From NCBI GenBank assembly GCA_018434355.1, contig JAHDPL010000023.1, positions 1-64,000 of the forward strand: DNA of 64,000 nt, read 5' to 3'. The notes beneath the pieces were generated by a model that saw only the letters and a program-made list of their open reading frames with translations, ran no database searches and was not told the origin of the DNA. The position numbers were made by a program, and so were the translations under genes. Position 1 is the first letter of the stretch, and each line of letters begins with the position of its first letter. Below are positions 34,459 to 44,057 of this stretch, in pieces. Source of the DNA: Sporomusaceae bacterium. Lineage in GTDB: Bacteria; Bacillota; Negativicutes; UBA1444.

Positions 34459-35550
34459 TTGCAGCGGGTGCGGGTTTCACAATTGAGTGTGGGAATGATC
34501 ACGGCCAGGAACGTATTCAGCGCTGACGGGCGGATGTTGCTGGCAGCGGACAAGGAAATCACAGAGTCTTATATCCGGCGGTTGCAGGAAATGGAGGTTT
34601 ATGCCATCTATGTCCGCAATCCGTTGTTTGATGACGTGGAAGTTCCGTTGGTCGTTTCCGAAGAAACCCGTATTCAGTCGATGCAAACAGTAAAACGGGC
34701 TTTTGAGGTTCTGCGCAACAAGCGGGAAGATGTTTCTTTCGATGCGATCCAGGGCGTGGCCCGGCGGATTGTGTCGGAGGTGCTGCGAAATCGTCGTGCG
34801 CTGGTACACCTGACTGAAATCAGGACACATGATGACTATACCTTTGCCCACTCAGTCGATGTATGCGGATTGTCGGTCCTGGTCGCGACCCACCTTGGGT
34901 ATAATGAAGTGAGACTGCAGGAACTGGCGGTCGGCGCGCTGCTGCACGATGTCGGCAAGACAAAGGTTGATGCCGCGGTGCTCAACAAGCAGGCGGCGCT
35001 TGATGATGATGAAATGGCGATGATGCGCAGTCATACGATGTTTGGTTTCGACATCCTGCGTTGCAGCAAAGGAAAACTGACATTGCCGTCGATCCACATC
35101 GCCCTGCAGCATCATGAAAAATATGATGGTAGCGGATACCCGCGGGGACTGAGTAAAGAAGAGATCCACGAGTATTCGCGAATTGTTTCGATTGCCGACG
35201 TATATGATGCCATCACTTCCGACCGGCCATACCGAAAGGCGCTGGAACCGCACGAAGCGTATGAATTGATGTTGGTGAACGGAAGTCAGCATTTTGATCC
35301 GCAAATTTTACCGATCTTTCTCAAACGGATCGCAATCTATCCGGTTGGGACGGTTGTAAGGCTGAATACCGGCGATATCGGCGTGGTTGTCAGCGTGCCG
35401 CCGGAGATGCCGTTACGACCGACTTTGCGGTTGATCATGGATAAACAGCGCCGTTTGTATCCCGGTTCGATAGAATATGATATGCAAAACCACCTGACCA
35501 GCTTTGTCGATCAGGTGGTTGATGGTCGTGAATTGTTGAAATTGATTTAG
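34459..35550 (+). CDS. HD-GYP domain c-di-GMP phosphodiesterase
   Basis: A 363-residue protein with a TTG start. The N-terminal 100 residues (SVGMITARNVFSADGRMLL) are the DUF3391-like segment often fused to HD-GYP domains. The phosphodiesterase domain carries HDVGK at about 171-175, HHEKYDGSGYPRG (GYP) at about 220-232, and the RxxxxADVYDAITSDRPYR helix. All metal ligands appear present. Residues 290-363 form a PilZ-like or beta-rich tail. The last 20 codons contain a perfect hairpin that probably serves as terminator for the convergent hydrogenase operon, whose stop overlaps this one by 4 bp. Confidence 0.9.
   Translation: MQRVRVSQLSVGMITARNVFSADGRMLLAADKEITESYIRRLQEMEVYAIYVRNPLFDDVEVPLVVSEETRIQSMQTVKRAFEVLRNKREDVSFDAIQGVARRIVSEVLRNRRALVHLTEIRTHDDYTFAHSVDVCGLSVLVATHLGYNEVRLQELAVGALLHDVGKTKVDAAVLNKQAALDDDEMAMMRSHTMFGFDILRCSKGKLTLPSIHIALQHHEKYDGSGYPRGLSKEEIHEYSRIVSIADVYDAITSDRPYRKALEPHEAYELMLVNGSQHFDPQILPIFLKRIAIYPVGTVVRLNTGDIGVVVSVPPEMPLRPTLRLIMDKQRRLYPGSIEYDMQNHLTSFVDQVVDGRELLKLI
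35488..35520 (-). terminator. Intrinsic terminator of the hydrogenase operon, inside the HD-GYP coding end
   Basis: AACCACCTGA (35488-35497) and TCAGGTGGTT (35511-35520) are perfect inverted repeats with a 13-nt loop. Read on the minus strand the stem ends in GGTGGTTTTGCATATC. It lies 27 bp beyond the stop of the hydrogenase gene. Confidence 0.6.
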
Positions 35551-37064
35551 GAATCGGCTGCGCCGGAAGTTTTGTGGTGTCGGTGCAGTCCCAGGGTTTC
35601 CAGCGGTTCGCTGTTGGGGTTGGTGACTGCTGATTTTTCCGGCGCGGCATTGGCAAAATTCTCGACCAGTTTGGCGGTGACACGCGAATCGGTCAATACG
35701 CCGGGACCGCCGACGCAACCGCCGGTGCAGGCCATTCCCTCGAAAAAGTTGGCAGACCGTTTGCCGGCCTCTATTTCCTGCAGACATTTCTTGCAGTTGC
35801 CCAGTCCTTCACAGCGTTCCGCTGCCACCTGCACATCAGGCGCCAGTTGCGCCAGCACGTTCTCAACCGCCTGCAGCACACCGCCGGCTTTGGCAAAGAT
35901 GTTGCCGTCCTTGGAGCCGGCGGAAGCAAATTCGCTCGCCGTCATTTCCGTGACATTGACCCCGGCGCCGACGATCGTCGTCGCCAGTTCTTCAAAGGTC
36001 AGCACATAGTCGACAATGCCGGGGTAGCGTTCCGCTTCGCTTTTCTTGGCAATACAGGGACCCACGAACACGACGATCCCCTCGGGATCGTTTTTCTTTA
36101 CGTTCATTGCTGCAGCTACCATCGGCGATACCAGGGAAGAGACGTTTTCCTTCATGCTTGGCAGATGCTTTTCGACCATGCCGACAAAGGCAGGGCAGCA
36201 GGAGGTGGTCATCAGGCCGCCTTTCGTTTTGGTCCGTTCGATAAACTCGCGGGCTTCTTCTACTGCAACTGCATCCGCGCCGACCGAGACTTCCAACACG
36301 TCATGGAAGCCTACTTTCAGTAGGCTGGCCCGAACTTGGCCAGGTCTGACCTGAACGCCGAACTGGCCGATAAACGCAGGGGCCAGCAATGCATAGACCC
36401 GTCGTCCGGCTTTGATCCGCTGGATGACCTGCACGATCATCGAACGGTCGGAGATGGCGCCGAAAGGACAGGCGATTTTGCAGGCGCCGCAGTGGACGCA
36501 CTGGTCATAATCGATTACTGCTTTGCGGGCTTTGTCGGCGGTGATGGCGCCCAGTTCGCAGGCGCGTTCACAGGGCCGCGAAATCTCAAGGATCGCGCCA
36601 TAAGGACAGGAGCGCTTGCACAGGCCGCATTCGACGCATTTCGATTTATCAATGAAGGAACGGTTGGCGACAACCGAAATCGCTTTTTTGGGGCAGCTGG
36701 CAATGCAGCTGTGGGCCAGGCAGTTGCGACAGGCGTCGGTCACGATGAAACGGTCCAGCGGGCACTGGTCGCAGGCGACCGGCAGGACTTGGATAATCGG
36801 CGCCGGGGCGATATTGCCGTCCAATGCGGCAGCTGCCGCTTCGGGAATCGTCGAATTCATCGGTTGGCTGAGCGCCGACTTGATCCGGTCCTGCAGCACG
36901 GCCCGTTCTTTGTGGACGCAGCAGCGATAGCGCGGTCCTTCGTCAGTGACGACAGACTGCAGAATGTTTTCCACATCGGTTTGCAGACGACCCTCAAAGG
37001 TCATCTGGGCGATTTCGGTCAGGACCTTGCGGCGGATTTTGGTAATCTCGTTGATTTCAGGCAC
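35547..37064 (-). CDS. [FeFe] hydrogenase, group-B-like, with N-terminal ferredoxin clusters
   Basis: A 505-residue cytoplasmic hydrogenase. The N-terminal half has several [4Fe-4S] motifs (CRNCLAHSCIASCP, CVECGLCKRSCP, CVHCGACKIACP). The catalytic H-cluster motifs are complete: L1 TTSCCPAFV with the proton-transfer Cys, L2 VGPCIAKKSEA and L3 EGMACTGGCVGGPG. L3 ending in GGP rather than GGG and the long N-terminal Cys-rich part fit group B. It should oxidise or evolve H2 with ferredoxin-type partners. It is last in the five-gene operon that begins at 40456, 19 bp after the small [2Fe-2S] protein gene. Confidence 0.88.
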   Translation of the reverse strand: MPEINEITKIRRKVLTEIAQMTFEGRLQTDVENILQSVVTDEGPRYRCCVHKERAVLQDRIKSALSQPMNSTIPEAAAAALDGNIAPAPIIQVLPVACDQCPLDRFIVTDACRNCLAHSCIASCPKKAISVVANRSFIDKSKCVECGLCKRSCPYGAILEISRPCERACELGAITADKARKAVIDYDQCVHCGACKIACPFGAISDRSMIVQVIQRIKAGRRVYALLAPAFIGQFGVQVRPGQVRASLLKVGFHDVLEVSVGADAVAVEEAREFIERTKTKGGLMTTSCCPAFVGMVEKHLPSMKENVSSLVSPMVAAAMNVKKNDPEGIVVFVGPCIAKKSEAERYPGIVDYVLTFEELATTIVGAGVNVTEMTASEFASAGSKDGNIFAKAGGVLQAVENVLAQLAPDVQVAAERCEGLGNCKKCLQEIEAGKRSANFFEGMACTGGCVGGPGVLTDSRVTAKLVENFANAAPEKSAVTNPNSEPLETLGLHRHHKTSGAADS

Positions 37065-37083
37065 TGTTTGTCATTCCCTCCAA

Positions 37084-37314
37084 TTATGCTAGATTCGCCT
37101 GCAGTATTTCCAGCAGGCGGTCCGGAGTAGCGTTGCTGATCAGTTCACCATTGATCCGGATATTGGGGCCTTTGCCGCAGTTCTTGAAACAGGTGACTCC
37201 TTTGATTTCAATCTGCTCGCGTTGTTCGGCCGGCAGTGTTTCCAGTACGGCGACCAGATCCTGGACGCCCATCAGGTGGCAGGAAGTACCCATGCATAGT
37301 TCCACAGTCAACAT
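37084..37314 (-). CDS. Small NuoE-like thioredoxin-fold [2Fe-2S] protein
   Basis: A 76-residue protein with the four-Cys pattern of the 24-kDa/NuoE thioredoxin-like ferredoxins: CMGTSCHLMG near the start (C7 and C12) and CFKNCGKGPNIRING (C42 and C46). It probably carries electrons between the hydrogenase and an acceptor. It resembles the first gene of the same operon, so the operon holds two such carriers, one before each hydrogenase gene. Confidence 0.85.
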   Translation of the reverse strand: MLTVELCMGTSCHLMGVQDLVAVLETLPAEQREQIEIKGVTCFKNCGKGPNIRINGELISNATPDRLLEILQANLA

Positions 37315-37353
37315 GAAGAAGGGATCACTCCTTTTTCTTTTCTGGTTTCCTGT

Positions 37354-38499
37354 CTAGACCCATTCGATATGGACTACTTTGCCCATTGCTTCCAGCTGGG
37401 TGCGCAGTCGCCCGATCACCTGGAGCTTGATGTTCATCGCAGCCGGCAGCAAGGGGTTTTGGTGAGCCGGGTTGACTGCGCCGCCGGCCCAGATATGGAC
37501 ATGATCAGATTCCATCAGCATACGGGCAACTAGGCTTGCTCCATCCATCCGGCCGGGCTGACGGAGTTCTTTGGCGGACCGCAGCCGGTCGACGGCGGCG
37601 TTTAGCGTCAGGACTCCTTCGGTGACCAGGTCGATGCCGTCCAGATGGGCGATTGGCGGAATGCTGGGATCGTGATATTCCAGCGAAACTTTCAGCGGTT
37701 TGCCAAGTACGCGACTGACCAATGTGGCTGTCGTACCGCCGGAAACGATCTTCGGACCGGGGGCGGCGAGTAGCCGACTGACGACAGCGGCATCGTGTTC
37801 CGGTGAGGCGGGCGGTCCCACCATCAGGTTGACACGGCGCGGCCGGCGAATTTTTATCGCGACAATAGTCGTGTCATCGCCGGGCTTGCCCAGATAATAG
37901 CCTTCGCAGCAGTTCAGCAGTGAATTGCATAGTTCATGGGTGTCCGACGCTTTGACGACATCTTCCGATAGACGGGCGGCTACGCCATTCCAGCCGAGCC
38001 CTAGCGGCAACAAGCCGCCGATCCCGGCATGAACCGCACCATCGCTGACCAGCGTGAGCCAGTCATTTTCCTGCAATTCCATTTGTCCGACCAATACAGT
38101 TTTGCCGCCGATGGTCCGATCTTGGGCCGGAAACGGCAGGACATGGCCGGCCCGACACAAAAAGGTGCGGGGGCTGTCAAACTCGACCAACGTGGCTTCG
38201 CCCTGCTGGTCGATCCGCAGGATCTGCAGCGTGGAGTAAGCAATTTTGCGTTCCTTGCAGACAGGCAACGTCTGGGCGATCGTTTCCACCACATCATCCA
38301 GACTGGCGCCGCGCGCCAGCATCGAGGAGGCGATTTTGGTGGTAAGGGTGGCGAGGATATTGGCTTTTACGCCGCTACCCAGACCGTCCGATACGACCAC
38401 GATCACCGAATCGCCGGTGCGGGTGACCTGAACATTGTCGCCGCACAGTTCTTCGCCGTGTTTGCACAATTGGGCAACATTGACTTCGGCATGCAGCAT
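37354..38499 (-). CDS. SpoIIE/PP2C-type serine phosphatase of the hydrogenase operon
   Basis: A 381-residue protein. Residues 1 to about 225 are a SpoIIE-like PP2C domain with metal-binding motifs VVVSDGLGSG (about 35-44), LVSDGAVHAG and KPGDDTTIV. The C-terminal 150 residues form a separate domain (VGPPASPEHDAAVVSRLL onward) of unknown role, as seen in the phosphatases that accompany sensory [FeFe] hydrogenases. Its start overlaps the stop of the PAS hydrogenase gene by one base, so the two are coupled. The likely job is to pass an H2 or redox signal to a phosphoprotein target (inference). Confidence 0.87.
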   Translation of the reverse strand: MLHAEVNVAQLCKHGEELCGDNVQVTRTGDSVIVVVSDGLGSGVKANILATLTTKIASSMLARGASLDDVVETIAQTLPVCKERKIAYSTLQILRIDQQGEATLVEFDSPRTFLCRAGHVLPFPAQDRTIGGKTVLVGQMELQENDWLTLVSDGAVHAGIGGLLPLGLGWNGVAARLSEDVVKASDTHELCNSLLNCCEGYYLGKPGDDTTIVAIKIRRPRRVNLMVGPPASPEHDAAVVSRLLAAPGPKIVSGGTTATLVSRVLGKPLKVSLEYHDPSIPPIAHLDGIDLVTEGVLTLNAAVDRLRSAKELRQPGRMDGASLVARMLMESDHVHIWAGGAVNPAHQNPLLPAAMNIKLQVIGRLRTQLEAMGKVVHIEWV

Positions 38500-40205
38500 C
38501 AGCGGGTATCCCGTTCTTTCAGCAGGCCTACCAAGTCCAGCAGGGCCGATTTGGTCTCGCCAGTGGTTTCGCCAAGCAGTCCGGCGATTTCCTGCGCCAC
38601 ATGCATCTGGCGGTTGATGATTTCCGCCGCTTTATCGATCGTTTCCAGTTTAACTTTTTGCAGATCGCGTTCTTTTTTCTCCCGTTCCGTGATGTCGGTG
38701 ACAATCAGGATGACCATGTTGTGTTCGCGAACAGGCAGAACCATCTGCTCGGTAATCAGCGCCCGCTCAGGGTATTCTACCCGTCGTCCGACATATTTTT
38801 CCTGGGTGCGGACCGCTTGCAGCAAACCACTGCAGTCGATGATTTTCGCCAGGCTTGTTCCCTTGACGAGATCGGCGCTCTGACCGAACATGGTTTCGGC
38901 GGCCGGATTGAACTCCTGGATGACCATGCTTTCGTCGACGACGATAATCGCATTGAGCGAGTTATCGATGACCATGTTGGAAAACGATTCGGCTTTCTTT
39001 TTCATATACGGGATGCACATGTCCACTTCAGCCAGCCCCTGCCAGACAGCAATCGCTTTTTCGCGGCAAGTGCTATAGCCGCAGGCGCCGCAGTTCTTTT
39101 CGTCCGCTTTGCTAAGCTTGGCCGTCTTTGCCAGGATTTCGCGGATTTCAATTTCGCTGGGTTGCATCTCGAGGATCGGCATGGCTGCGTGATTGCGCGA
39201 AAAATCGCCGCAAGTGGCTGGAACGCTTAATTCTGGCTGTAATGACTGCTTTGCGAACTCGACGACCCGGAGCCGACGAACCGGCGTGCCGCCCTGATGC
39301 GGGAAACCAGGCCCGCCGATACAGCCGCCTTCGCAGGCCAGCGCCTCGACAAACCGCGGTGAAATTTGCCATTGGCTCAGACAATCGAATACTTCCATGC
39401 AATTCTTGATTCCGTGGACAGTAATGACATCGGTATCGGTTTCATCATGTTCGAGGAAACTTTTTAAAATACCGCCGGTAATCGGAAAGAATCGGGAAGG
39501 GCCGGGTGTATCCAAGGCGACTTCGTCGGCGACAAGGGTTTCCTGAAAGACTTTTTCTTCACGAAACCAAGTCGCGAGATGTTCGAACGTGAGAACTGCA
39601 TCAATCGACCCAGCAATGTCGCTGTCGCGGCCTTCGGCGATTTTGGCGATACAGGGTCCGACGAAAACAACGAACAGATCCTCGCCGAGTTTTTGCTTGA
39701 GAATTCGGCCATGGGCGATCATCGGCGAGACAACCGGCGCCAGATTGCCGGTGAGCTCGGGGTAATACTTTTCCACCAGGCGGGTGACAACCGGGCAGCA
39801 GGCGGAAATGACCGGCGATTCGGTCGTGGCGACCAGGTCGCTGTAAATTTCGGATACGGCTGCCGCGCCGACCGCTGTTTCTTCGACTGCACAAGCGCCC
39901 AGATGTTTTAAGGCGGTTCGCAGCTGACCGATCGTCAATTCGGGAAATGCGGCGACAAATGAAGGCGCAATACTGAACGCCACCCTGCCGCCGGCGGCAA
40001 GGGCGCGTTGCACGCTATCGAGCTGGTTTTCCACTTTTTTCGCATTTTGCGGACATTCGACCACACATTCGCCGCAGAGGATGCATTTGTCGAGCACGAC
40101 ACTGGCGTGGCCGGCTTCGATGCCGATTGCTTTCACCGGACAGGAACGGACACAGCGGTGGCAATCCTGGCAATTGACTTTTTGCGTGGTGATTGCCTGC
40201 TTCAT
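38499..40205 (-). CDS. Sensory [FeFe] hydrogenase with PAS domain (group C, HydS-like)
   Basis: A 568-residue protein. Two [4Fe-4S] motifs open it (CQDCHRCVRSCP, CILCGECVVECP). The H-cluster domain follows: L1 SACCPVV, L2 VGPCIAKIAEG (second Lys of the PCxxKKxE motif replaced by Ile) and L3 EALACEGGCIGGPG (the usual Met replaced by Leu). A CGACGYSTCREKA Fe-S region comes near residue 370, then a PAS domain (about 425-530) and a helical tail. Changed L2/L3 residues, PAS and the adjacent PP2C phosphatase are hallmarks of group C hydrogenases thought to sense H2 rather than turn it over fast. The stop region overlaps the neighbouring gene by one base. Confidence 0.87.
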   Translation of the reverse strand: MKQAITTQKVNCQDCHRCVRSCPVKAIGIEAGHASVVLDKCILCGECVVECPQNAKKVENQLDSVQRALAAGGRVAFSIAPSFVAAFPELTIGQLRTALKHLGACAVEETAVGAAAVSEIYSDLVATTESPVISACCPVVTRLVEKYYPELTGNLAPVVSPMIAHGRILKQKLGEDLFVVFVGPCIAKIAEGRDSDIAGSIDAVLTFEHLATWFREEKVFQETLVADEVALDTPGPSRFFPITGGILKSFLEHDETDTDVITVHGIKNCMEVFDCLSQWQISPRFVEALACEGGCIGGPGFPHQGGTPVRRLRVVEFAKQSLQPELSVPATCGDFSRNHAAMPILEMQPSEIEIREILAKTAKLSKADEKNCGACGYSTCREKAIAVWQGLAEVDMCIPYMKKKAESFSNMVIDNSLNAIIVVDESMVIQEFNPAAETMFGQSADLVKGTSLAKIIDCSGLLQAVRTQEKYVGRRVEYPERALITEQMVLPVREHNMVILIVTDITEREKKERDLQKVKLETIDKAAEIINRQMHVAQEIAGLLGETTGETKSALLDLVGLLKERDTR

Positions 40206-40456
40206 GTCTTATCTCCGATTTTTAAGATATATTTTAGAAAAATTTCGTGGACCTGGTCGCGAGTCACATTGGTCAACAGGTGGTCGTCAATTTGAACGAC
40301 CACGCCTTCAGTGCAGCGCCCCTGGCAAAAGTTGCCGGCCATTTGCACCGATGCCTGCGCCTGATGTTTTTCAATCAGCGCCAGAAAGGCCTCTAATACT
40401 CCGTTGGCGCCTTTTAAGTGACAGGCGCTGCCCAGACAAACCGAAACCGTGATCAT
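40202..40456 (-). CDS. Small NuoE-like thioredoxin-fold [2Fe-2S] protein, first gene of hydrogenase operon
   Basis: An 84-residue protein starting MITVSVCLGSACHLKG; cluster cysteines are CLGSAC (C7, C12) and CQGRC (about C46, C50). ATG 40456 is chosen for its GGGGTG ribosome site; the longer in-frame start at 40525 would place the predicted promoter and Rex-like box inside the gene. It overlaps the PAS hydrogenase gene by 4 bp. It probably delivers or accepts electrons for the sensory hydrogenase. Confidence 0.85.
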   Translation of the reverse strand: MITVSVCLGSACHLKGANGVLEAFLALIEKHQAQASVQMAGNFCQGRCTEGVVVQIDDHLLTNVTRDQVHEIFLKYILKIGDKT

Positions 40457-40472
40457 CGTCGCACCCCATTGC

Positions 40473-40532
40473 CTGTGAAATTTTTCACTAGAAGTTATTC
40501 CTAATTGTACTAAACGGGTAAACATTTCGCAA
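40473..40532 (-). promoter_or_regulatory. Hydrogenase operon promoter with Rex-like operator
   Basis: On the minus strand: TTGCGA (40532-40527), 17-bp spacer, TACAAT (40509-40504). Between the predicted start site and the first gene lies CTGTGAA-ATTT-TTCACTA at 40473-40490, which matches the Rex consensus TTGTGAA-N4-TTCACAA at 12 of 14 positions. Rex represses fermentative and hydrogenase genes until NADH rises; this position just past the start site suits a repressor. Confidence 0.65.
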
Positions 40533-40649
40533 CCATCCGGTAGAAGGCAGGATTTTCGCCAACCCTGTCAAATTAATCATGATAGGGCTTTGCCTAAATT
40601 AGGATATAATATGAAAGCATAAATTGATTGCTTAAACGGAGGAATGGGT

Positions 40650-42659
40650 TTGAACGGCTACCTGATAGGATTGTTGATCGGCTTGCCAAGTGTGTTGGCC
40701 GGCTTTTTGCTCTTGAACCGAAACCGCTCCCTGCAGAAAACTGCCGTCATTTTAATGGCCATCGTGTTGCTGGGGTCAGGCGGTTTGGCTTTTTCAGTGC
40801 GGACCACTAGCGTTTCAATGCCTGCCGGCCTTGCCGACCTAGGTCTGTCGCTTTCCGTAGTGGCAAACTTGGCTGTATTGGGCGTGCTGGCTTATTTGAG
40901 CGGGGCCTGGAAAAACAGATGGATTGGCGGATTGCAGGCGATTCAGGCAGGCATGCTGATTTGGCTCGCGGTTTCTGGCCGCGGCGTCAGCCAGTCCGGA
41001 TTATTTGTGCTCGACCACCTGGCTGTGCTGATGTTGTTGCTGGTCAATGTAACAGGCGCTCTCGCGCTGCTGTTCGCTCTGAAATACATGGAGCGGCACG
41101 AGCAGCGGCGGGGTATCGATAGTAAACGCAGTGCGCTGTTTATCGCGGCGGCCGCATTCATGACCCCGGCAATGAGCGGGCTGCTGCTTGCCGATCATTT
41201 GCTGTGGCTGCTGTTTTTCTGGCAGAGTTTGATTGTGGCTGGCTTTATCCTGATCTCTCATGACCGGACAACGCTGGCGCTGAAGAACGCTCGCACCTTT
41301 ATTGGTTGGCAACTGTTCGGCGGTGCTGTTTTTCTGGCAGGAGCAATCGGCTTGCAGTCACTGGCCCGAAGCCTGACAATTTCCGAATTGCTGGTATTTA
41401 GCGATGCGAGCCTGATTCTGTTGCCGGTAGCCGTTTTAGTAACTGCCTGCCTAGTGATGGCGGCGCAATTTCCTTTTCAGGCCGGACTGCTGAACTGCGC
41501 AGCCGCACCGACGCCGGCCGCTGTCATGCTTCAGGCAGTGACGCTGGTCAATGCCGGGATCTATCTGATGATCCGGATGTCGCCGCTGCTGATGAACACC
41601 TGGCTGGCCAAAATCGTTGCGGTTATCGGCATGTTTTCCTTTGCTGCTGCGGCGTTACTGGCGCTTATGCAGCACGACAGCAAACGGATTTTCATCTTTT
41701 CAACGATTTCCTGCGCCGGATTGGCGATCGCTTTGGCTTCGCTGGCGAATCTGCAGGCGATTTACGCGGCGGTTCTGTTGACGCTGCTGCATGGCGCCAC
41801 CAAGACCCTGCTGCTACTGGCAACCAGCGGCAATGCAAGTTCGTTCCTGTCGGTGCGACTCGCGCTACTGGCCGCGGTGTCGATGCTGATGCCGCCTTTT
41901 GGCATTCCGCTGATGCAATGGACCGCATTGGAAGCGGTGACGCAAAATCCGGTCGCATTGCTGCTGCTGGTAGCAGGTATCGTTATTTCCATGCTGTACT
42001 GGGCCCGGTTTATTGTCAAGCGGCTGGAAACCATCGGGCAGGCGGGAACAATGAGGCTGGAACCGCTGTATGCAGTTCCGCAAATCGCTGCGGCTGCTGT
42101 CGTTGTTTTGCTGGGCCTGTTTTCCGTTCCATTTACAAACTGGTTGATTGCGCCGGTACTCAGGGAAAACTTCCGTCGCTTCAGCGATATTGCGCAAGCT
42201 GATGCGGCAAGCTTTTTGATCCGCGACTGGGTCGGCGTCAATCCGCTGTTGTTGGTTGCCGCGCTGGCCGGGGTTGTTATTCCGGGTTGGCTGGTTTTGC
42301 GCTGGCTTTGCCTGCGGCAGGCGGCGGCGCCGGCCGTGGCGCCGACCGTGGAAAGTATAGGTGAGGTCGAAGAAGTAACGGCAATAATAGAAGAAGCACA
42401 AGAAACTGAAACCGATGCTGAAAAGACGTCTTTGCAAGATGAGGCGAATTCTGATGTCCCAGGCAATGAGGTTTCGAGTAACAAGGTGACCGATACAGAA
42501 GAGTTGGCGCCACTTGCCGATGAACACCCCGCAGTAGGTTTTCATTTTCCGACCCGAACGGTTCTGTCGATATTTCCTGATGCGCCGAAAACTCATCTCT
42601 ATGTGACAGTCATTGCCGGTGCGCTGATAATCCTGATGTTTGAGGTGGTGATCCGGTGA
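40650..42659 (+). CDS. NuoL/EchA-like antiporter-type membrane subunit with altered channel residues
   Basis: About 669 residues with some 14 membrane helices. TTG 40650 is favoured, 7 nt after GGAGG; ATG 40644 abuts that site. The Mrp/NuoL core is recognisable (LLLADHLLWLLFFWQSL, AAQFPFQAGLL, APTPAAVMLQAVTLVNAGIYL, in pieces). The conserved channel Glu of helix 5 (usual FFWE) is Q192, the helix 7 Lys (usual KSAQFPFH) is M270, and the following His is Q277. K345 (DSKRIFIFSTIS) and the HGATK Lys (K385) remain. An acidic hydrophilic insert of about 80 residues precedes the final helix. TATAAT lies at 40605-40610. It overlaps the NuoH-like gene by 4 bp. Confidence 0.75.
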   Translation: MNGYLIGLLIGLPSVLAGFLLLNRNRSLQKTAVILMAIVLLGSGGLAFSVRTTSVSMPAGLADLGLSLSVVANLAVLGVLAYLSGAWKNRWIGGLQAIQAGMLIWLAVSGRGVSQSGLFVLDHLAVLMLLLVNVTGALALLFALKYMERHEQRRGIDSKRSALFIAAAAFMTPAMSGLLLADHLLWLLFFWQSLIVAGFILISHDRTTLALKNARTFIGWQLFGGAVFLAGAIGLQSLARSLTISELLVFSDASLILLPVAVLVTACLVMAAQFPFQAGLLNCAAAPTPAAVMLQAVTLVNAGIYLMIRMSPLLMNTWLAKIVAVIGMFSFAAAALLALMQHDSKRIFIFSTISCAGLAIALASLANLQAIYAAVLLTLLHGATKTLLLLATSGNASSFLSVRLALLAAVSMLMPPFGIPLMQWTALEAVTQNPVALLLLVAGIVISMLYWARFIVKRLETIGQAGTMRLEPLYAVPQIAAAAVVVLLGLFSVPFTNWLIAPVLRENFRRFSDIAQADAASFLIRDWVGVNPLLLVAALAGVVIPGWLVLRWLCLRQAAAPAVAPTVESIGEVEEVTAIIEEAQETETDAEKTSLQDEANSDVPGNEVSSNKVTDTEELAPLADEHPAVGFHFPTRTVLSIFPDAPKTHLYVTVIAGALIILMFEVVIR

Positions 42660-43486
42660 TGGCGATAATTTCGAACGAATCGGCAAAACTTGTCATGGTA
42701 TTGCTTGTTGTCGTCGCGACCCCCGTGGTGTCCGGTTTGTTTGCCGGCCTGGCCAGGCGGATGCGGTTGCGTAGGGATGGCGGGATGGAAGCGGCGATCA
42801 TGCAGCCGTTTTATGACTTTAACCATTTGATTCGACAGCAAGCGGGACCGGCTGGAAATACCGCCCAGTTTGCCATATTGCTGCAACTGGCCTTTTCTTT
42901 GTTGGCTCTGGCGCTGATCGTGTTGCAACGCAATCTGCTATCCGCTTTGTTGTTGCAGTCTTTCTCCGGCCTGATGGCGATTGCCGCCAACGGCGTCCGT
43001 CCGGTCGGCGAGGATAGTCTGCGACGCACGAACCCGTTGAAACTGTTTCTGACCTATCAGCCGCTGGTGCTGATGGCGGCGGCCGGTTGCGGTCTGGCGA
43101 CCGGCGGATTCGGCATCGATGCGATGCTGGGCCTGTCGCGTCCGTTGATCGTTGAACTGCCGCTGCTTTGGCTGTCGCTGTTATATGTTGCTTACATATC
43201 CAGCCTGCAGGAACCGGATAAAGCCCTGCGCGGACCGTTGCTGGCGGTGGAGCGTCTGGCCGGCTGTTTTCGCATCGCGAACCTGTTGATGTTCGCCGGA
43301 GTGGTGGCGTCCGACAGCCTGATTATGGCCGGTCTGGTCGCAGTGCTACTGGGGTATGGCCTGGTTGTCGCCGAAGACCTGCGCAGTAAGCTGCATTGGC
43401 GGCTGATGGCGGCCTGGGGCTGGGAGTTTGTTTACTTTGCTTGCGCCATCAACCTGTCCTGGTTGTATATCAAGTATCTGCTATAG
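42656..43486 (+). CDS. NuoH/EchB/HycD-like membrane subunit
   Basis: A 276-residue membrane protein with about eight helices. It keeps the loop after helix 1 typical of the family (RRMRLRRDGGMEAAIMQPFYDFNHLIR; compare RxGP...QPYxDLxKLL), shown here in part, although GP has become GG. The acidic loop motif used at the quinone or proton entry (HLELTM-like in HycD/EchB) is not recognisable; SSLQEPDKALRGPLLAVERLAG stands in its place. It is coupled to the NuoL-like gene. No NuoB, C, D or I-type subunit or NiFe hydrogenase gene follows, so a standard Ech or Hyc complex cannot be assembled from this locus. Confidence 0.75.
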   Translation: MMAIISNESAKLVMVLLVVVATPVVSGLFAGLARRMRLRRDGGMEAAIMQPFYDFNHLIRQQAGPAGNTAQFAILLQLAFSLLALALIVLQRNLLSALLLQSFSGLMAIAANGVRPVGEDSLRRTNPLKLFLTYQPLVLMAAAGCGLATGGFGIDAMLGLSRPLIVELPLLWLSLLYVAYISSLQEPDKALRGPLLAVERLAGCFRIANLLMFAGVVASDSLIMAGLVAVLLGYGLVVAEDLRSKLHWRLMAAWGWEFVYFACAINLSWLYIKYLL

Positions 43487-43496
43487 TTGAATCGTC

Positions 43497-44057
43497 TTAA
43501 TAGCGGGGTCCGGGGAATTGACGCGGAAACGCCTTGTCCAGTTGGTTCAATAGATCTTCGAGCGCGGCAAGCGCCAAGGGGACCGGCCCGCTGAATACGC
43601 CGACAATTTCGGTGGCGGAACGGCTGGCGGCTAATTTGCCGTATTGGCCGGTCTGCTTGTTATAATATGACAAGGTGAGTGTCAGGAAAGTCGATTCATA
43701 GGTTTCGTCGTCAAAGAATCCATGATGCAGGCGGTTGGTCAGAACTGTGATTTCCAGGCTGACAACGCCGTCGGCTGCGTTATCGGTCGCAAGTTTTTCC
43801 AGCAACGGCCGGTCGACATCACGATTTAACGCCGCTACCGTTAGGATTTCATACTTTGGAAACCGGAACTGGCTGCGCAGTTTGGTAAGCAATGCGGCGT
43901 TCAGTTCGTTGTTGCGATAGCCGGATTTGTCAGTGATGGCGGGCAATGTGATCTTGACTGAATCAATCGCTTGTGATACCGGCATGTTGAACAGCAACAA
44001 GCTGAAGCTGAACAGCAGGATAGCGGCTACGCTGCGAAGCAAAGCGGCAGGATGCAT
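43497..44057 (-). CDS. Secreted protein of unknown function
   Basis: A 186-residue protein with a clear N-terminal signal peptide: basic start, hydrophobic stretch AAILLFSFSLLLF and a likely cleavage after VSQA near residue 30. There is no lipobox Cys. The mature part is alpha/beta, with repeated beta strands (VVSLEITVLTN, STFLTLTLSYYNK) and a GPVPLALAALEDLLNQLDKAF helix at the end. In a diderm host it would be periplasmic or attached to the outer membrane. I do not recognise a family. It converges on the NuoH-like gene (10 bp apart). Confidence 0.65.
   Translation of the reverse strand: MHPAALLRSVAAILLFSFSLLLFNMPVSQAIDSVKITLPAITDKSGYRNNELNAALLTKLRSQFRFPKYEILTVAALNRDVDRPLLEKLATDNAADGVVSLEITVLTNRLHHGFFDDETYESTFLTLTLSYYNKQTGQYGKLAASRSATEIVGVFSGPVPLALAALEDLLNQLDKAFPRQFPGPRY

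Follow-up and report, generated by a model that had tools for sequence, protein, structure and literature searches.

Why would a bacterium keep the membrane part of a complex I-type enzyme at a locus with no catalytic genes to go with it? Membrane modules of this type are usually viewed as pumps moving between redox partners, and the stretch of 64,000 nucleotides analysed here (the window) carries a pair of their subunits, encoded by two coupled genes (Table 1). An earlier note had placed this pair at 40650-43486, and the positions of both genes, the TTG start of the first and their overlap were all confirmed. The only other member of the genus that we examined, the MAG Negativicutes bacterium UBA1444 (UBA1444), also has this orphan pair, with the gene order unchanged. 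It was returned, together with one further hfs locus, when genome contigs were queried with an alignment of HydS, the PAS-domain hydrogenase of the neighbouring cluster; the EchA protein alone gave no match as a query of the contigs. Comparisons within the genus draw on these two genomes, and the UBA1444 MAG is 73% complete, with runs of N in both echA and echB; two assembly N are the sole interruptions in the reading frame of its echB. The TTG at 40650 is the better start of echA, as it follows the GGAGG at 7 nt, and UBA1444 has GGAGG-7-TTG and no ATG there. The overlap of the two genes (42656-42659) reads GTGA in the window and ATGA in UBA1444.

Table 1. Features of the EchAB-derived gene pair and of the adjoining hfs-type cluster (positions in the window)
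Feature	Position	Strand	Remarks
Group B1 monomeric [FeFe] hydrogenase, HfsD-like	35547..37064	-	TIGR04105, 573.8 bits (cut-off 450)
Second small [2Fe-2S] thioredoxin-like protein, 76 aa	37084..37314	-	Between phosphatase and group B1 hydrogenase
SpoIIE/PP2C-type phosphatase, HfsC-like	37354..38499	-	PF07228
HydS/HfsB-type [FeFe] hydrogenase with PAS domain	38499..40205	-	
Small [2Fe-2S] thioredoxin-like protein, first gene of the hfs-type cluster	40202..40525	-	PF01257, 1.6e-9; conserved here across hfs loci
echA Shine-Dalgarno sequence, GGAGG	40638..40642	+	7 nt before TTG; spacing identical in UBA1444
EchA-derived protein	40650..42659	+	669 aa, TTG start; NuoL/MrpA-type antiporter-like subunit
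Genus-specific conserved EchA loop, residues 494-531	42131..42244	+	ENFxRFxDIAQxxAxxFLIR; predicted outside-facing
Acidic, sequence-variable EchA segment, residues 551-649	42300..42596	+	At the NuoL lateral helix position
EchA last helix, residues 650-668	42597..42653	+	14/19 identical in the genus pair
EchB-derived protein	42656..43486	+	NuoH-type subunit, 276 aa; its GTG start overlaps the stop codon of echA

EchA matched PF00361, the antiporter-like fold family (1.1e-18), as well as PF00662, and its matches among PDB chains were MrpA, NuoL and NdhF. The window EchB lies below the detection of Pfam and NCBIfam. It is 28% identical to the EchB of the Negativicutes genome G090 (BLAST), its PDB match was the NuoH-type subunit MbhM (6cfw_M), weak (E=0.002) and limited to the N-terminal part, and an EchB profile in which the window sequence is itself one row matched it with E=4e-96. 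AlphaFold models, built from 2-3 sequences only, reached pLDDT values of 39 and 42 for the two proteins, too low to be of use. In a maximum-likelihood tree of EchA the window and UBA1444 proteins group together (100/99), inside the starred group that also holds the full-operon EchA of G090 and of G671, another Bacillota genome. This nesting among full-operon proteins, along with the ech-operon relatives, marks the pair as EchA and EchB rather than generic NuoL and NuoH. With the group 4 Ech [NiFe] hydrogenases (e.g. T. kivui Ech2, PMC9356269) the pair shares homology over the full length, the order echA-echB and the predicted helix pattern.

What it does not share with them is a catalytic arm. 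EchA relatives were present in 24 of the 380 Negativicutes genomes searched, and our comparison set comprised 70 EchA loci outside the genus, 17 from the class and 53 from 398 sampled genomes of the phylum. EchB and EchC were present at all 70, and EchD-F also wherever the contig reached; five of the contigs end before the full ech operon could be read. In the window no EchC-F genes lie 3′ of echB, in agreement with the earlier description of an orphan pair that no catalytic genes follow. That description had left room for Ech catalytic genes elsewhere in the genome, which is rated 100% complete; searching all of it with the EchE of G090 revealed no EchE. It matched the complex I subunit NuoD (C51) and a pair of HyfG-type proteins from a tandem Hyf locus (C33); the other two matches were weak and distant. 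A literature search, which left out most subscription journals, found no report of an orphan echAB.

Within EchA, the charged proton-relay residues have been replaced in both genus members. The columns of the EchA family were assigned by comparison with the NuoL of the same genome, and were equated with E. coli NuoL and Nqo12 numbering by motif and alignment, not by structure. The TM5 Glu, found in 70/70 full-operon EchA, is Q192 in the window and Q in UBA1444; the TM7 Lys (70/70) is M270 and F, the TM7b His (69/70) Q295 and Q, K301 (67/70) N and V, and the TM12 Lys (70/70) Q423 and Q, respectively. H381 and K385 are retained in both proteins; K345 is present in the window, but UBA1444 has Asp at this position. 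The losses at 192 and 270 and the presence of K345 and K385 had been noted before and stand. A third proposed loss, that of a His at 277, was rejected, since this column carries Q, S or C in Ech proteins and Q277 is therefore ordinary; the His really lost is that at 295. E. coli NuoL becomes inactive with E144A or E144Q, or when K229 is mutated (PMC3046159), and Nqo12 no longer conducts protons once its terminal Lys is replaced (PMC11496545). Residues whose mutation is inactivating in NuoL/Nqo12 are naturally replaced in the window EchA.

EchB has changed as well. The NuoH-like protein had been said to lack the usual acidic loop, and indeed 17 of the 19 charged columns that are at least 90% conserved in relatives are changed in it, and the stretch KSPFD...H.HQE...TEYSG, which includes the docking loop, is deleted; neither this loop nor the acidic residues of an Ech EchB were found. 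In complex I-type enzymes the corresponding region of EchB faces the catalytic arm.

Unlike Ech hydrogenase, which has the catalytic genes, relay residues and docking residues missing here, the window EchA has gained an acidic segment and a new conserved loop. The segment of residues 551-649 contains 20 acidic and 6 basic residues; an acidic insert of about 80 residues before the last helix had been noted earlier, and the segment has 99 residues, about 50 more than in ordinary EchA. Based on NuoL parity and topology and on the distribution of basic residues (positive-inside pattern), the loop of residues 494-531 should lie outside and the acidic segment in the cytoplasm. The parts of EchAB presumed to face the cytoplasm are the least conserved ones, which argues against a conserved cytoplasmic partner. 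Between the two genus members EchA is 41% identical in the core (184-391), while the loop is identical at 19 of 38 positions, the loop and last helix together at 58% and the last helix alone at 74%. Among full-operon EchA proteins the C-terminus exceeded the core in 0 of 2390 pairs; the C-terminal regions were chosen after inspecting the alignment, which weakens this test, and still no control pair came close. This shift of conservation to the loop and last helix favours a changed function over simple decay.

We consider it probable that EchA and EchB are an Ech-derived, non-pumping membrane pair that has been retained for another membrane function. In the ancestor of the genus EchC-F, the catalytic and Fe-S subunits on the cytoplasmic side, would have disappeared; next, EchA would have shed its charged proton-relay residues and EchB the loops that seat the catalytic arm. 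Most likely EchA and EchB still associate as a heterodimer in the membrane, with contacts made partly by the conserved last helix of the former and the last helices of the latter; this dimer would have neither redox coupling nor proton pumping. A non-pumping state had been raised as a possibility in the earlier note, and the relay-residue losses support it as a likely outcome. Selection may maintain the pair for a different membrane function, if such a function exists, in which the 494-531 loop, presumably at the outer face, and the last helix of EchA would take part. A broader reading, which we offer tentatively and find slightly easier to doubt than to accept, is that the genus carries a new two-subunit membrane protein family derived from an energy-converting hydrogenase, which shed its catalytic arm and proton relay and came under selection on the outward loop and the last helix of EchA, so that a complex I-type module would have been reused beyond ion pumping.

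The next best explanation is that echAB are a decaying relic, on their way out after the loss of the catalytic genes and merely tolerable as membrane proteins. Evolution of the pair has been very fast, with EchA tree branches of 1.22 changes/site for the stem and of 1.26 and 2.2 for the genus tips, compared with a median of 0.5, and nearly all catalysis-related residues are gone. The dN/dS ratios between the window and UBA1444, rough values as dS is near saturation or saturated, are also raised: EchA has 0.30, and the two halves of EchB that could be read have 0.58 and 0.19, versus 0.07-0.19 for eight neighbouring genes. However, the frames, the start region and the overlap are intact in both species after a dS above 1. 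In 300 runs of a neutral simulation at a divergence of 0.65, about 12 stops were expected in echA and never zero, whereas none is observed. Moreover, conservation is concentrated at new sites and not uniformly relaxed, so that echAB do not have the properties of pseudogenes. The two genes are under moderate purifying selection and not in passive decay, and the relic explanation is unlikely.

The genomic surroundings bear on a second alternative, also put forward in the earlier note, in which the pair would be a non-pumping membrane anchor or regulator for the adjoining hfs-type [FeFe] hydrogenase cluster. As had been stated, the pair is divergent from two [FeFe] hydrogenase genes; echA and the cluster face away from each other across a 125-bp intergenic region in both species, and the acidic segment, presumed to be cytoplasmic, might serve to bind a soluble protein. 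A promoter scan of this intergenic region gave weak matches only, near chance level. The cluster encodes, in one direction, a [2Fe-2S] protein, a PAS [FeFe] hydrogenase, a SpoIIE-type phosphatase and an [FeFe] hydrogenase, an order that agrees with the description of hfsABCD in Thermoanaerobacterium, whose HfsB, HfsC and HfsD its proteins match (PMC11837493). Unlike the window cluster, the known and surveyed hfs-type clusters have no adjoining EchAB. Of 379 Negativicutes genomes, 35 encode HydS (E below 1e-80), and in the neighbourhood survey EchAB was beside 0 of the 21 other hfs-type loci inspected; there, mostly yebC and ruv-type genes follow, as identified by eye from the sequence. Nor did HydS, the SpoIIE-type protein or HydB1 of the genus have a docking insert relative to other hfs loci, the genus-specific differences seen being one inserted residue in HydS and six additional residues at the C-terminus of HydB1, and the presumed cytoplasmic segment is the part of the pair that is least conserved. 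The adjacency in UBA1444 belongs to a longer syntenic block (larA, lgt, symporter, 186-aa gene, EchBA, hfs, HD-GYP) and therefore provides no independent evidence for a link with the hydrogenases. Adjacency is thus the whole basis of the anchor idea, which is not supported, and we regard it as improbable, more so than a relic.

Three observations on this neighbourhood are added here. The hfs-type cluster of the genus (35547-40525) has other neighbours than in most of the other Negativicutes inspected and adjoins an HD-GYP gene and the orphan echAB. Its 76-aa [2Fe-2S] gene (37084-37314) is overlooked by length-limited ORF lists and is kept at this place in many hfs-type clusters. Convergent with echB lies a gene (43497-44057, minus strand) whose 186-aa product has an N-terminus resembling a signal sequence, matches no family significantly and is 54% identical in UBA1444.

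A third alternative sees in the pair a simplified ion channel, leak or antiporter working through the remaining H381/K385 half channel, both residues being retained in the two genus members. A precedent is DabB of DAB2/MpsAB, a NuoL relative outside complex I that has no TM5 Glu and is yet thought to be a proton conduit (PMC13144422); the loss of the TM5 Glu alone is therefore no proof of lost transport. Here the Lys residues of TM7 and TM12 and the TM7b His are gone too, whereas DabB, which is partnered by DabA instead of EchB, retains the TM7 Lys as well as the cytoplasmic half channel. Proteoliposome experiments found proton conduction blocked when the terminal Lys was replaced in Nqo12 or the middle one in Nqo13 (PMC11496545), and the core of the window EchA is less conserved than its C-terminus. 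A channel function is thus very improbable. It is hardly credible that EchAB supply the membrane part of a different group 4 [NiFe] enzyme in the cell: two tandem Hyf-type units and complex I are encoded in the genome, but these have NuoH-type genes of their own, the Hyf-type units also NuoL- and NuoN-type ones, and EchB is without the loops that dock any catalytic arm.

If, as we favour, EchAB are retained for another membrane function and lack a redox partner, a docking surface and a relay, they would reveal a non-pumping capacity of complex I-type membrane modules. The EchA proteins of the window and UBA1444 are natural multi-site variants at residues that laboratory studies of the proton path have targeted by mutation. 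They also call for caution in the annotation of metabolic models, where a NuoL/EchA match is not always a hydrogenase or an ion pump.

Two minor observations concern other loci. The tandem Hyf locus of this genome (L029; G000:C33:148001-168000) comprises two group 4 [NiFe] units, each encoding membrane subunits of its own; their large subunits terminate in ELCYAC, compared with DPCxxC in EchE, and in one unit a ferredoxin is fused to the small subunit. At G422:C5 and G518:C11 (L187 and L189), EchA has a single in-frame stop (TGA and TAA, respectively), from either a sequencing error or decay, inside the profile match, in an ech operon that is otherwise complete.
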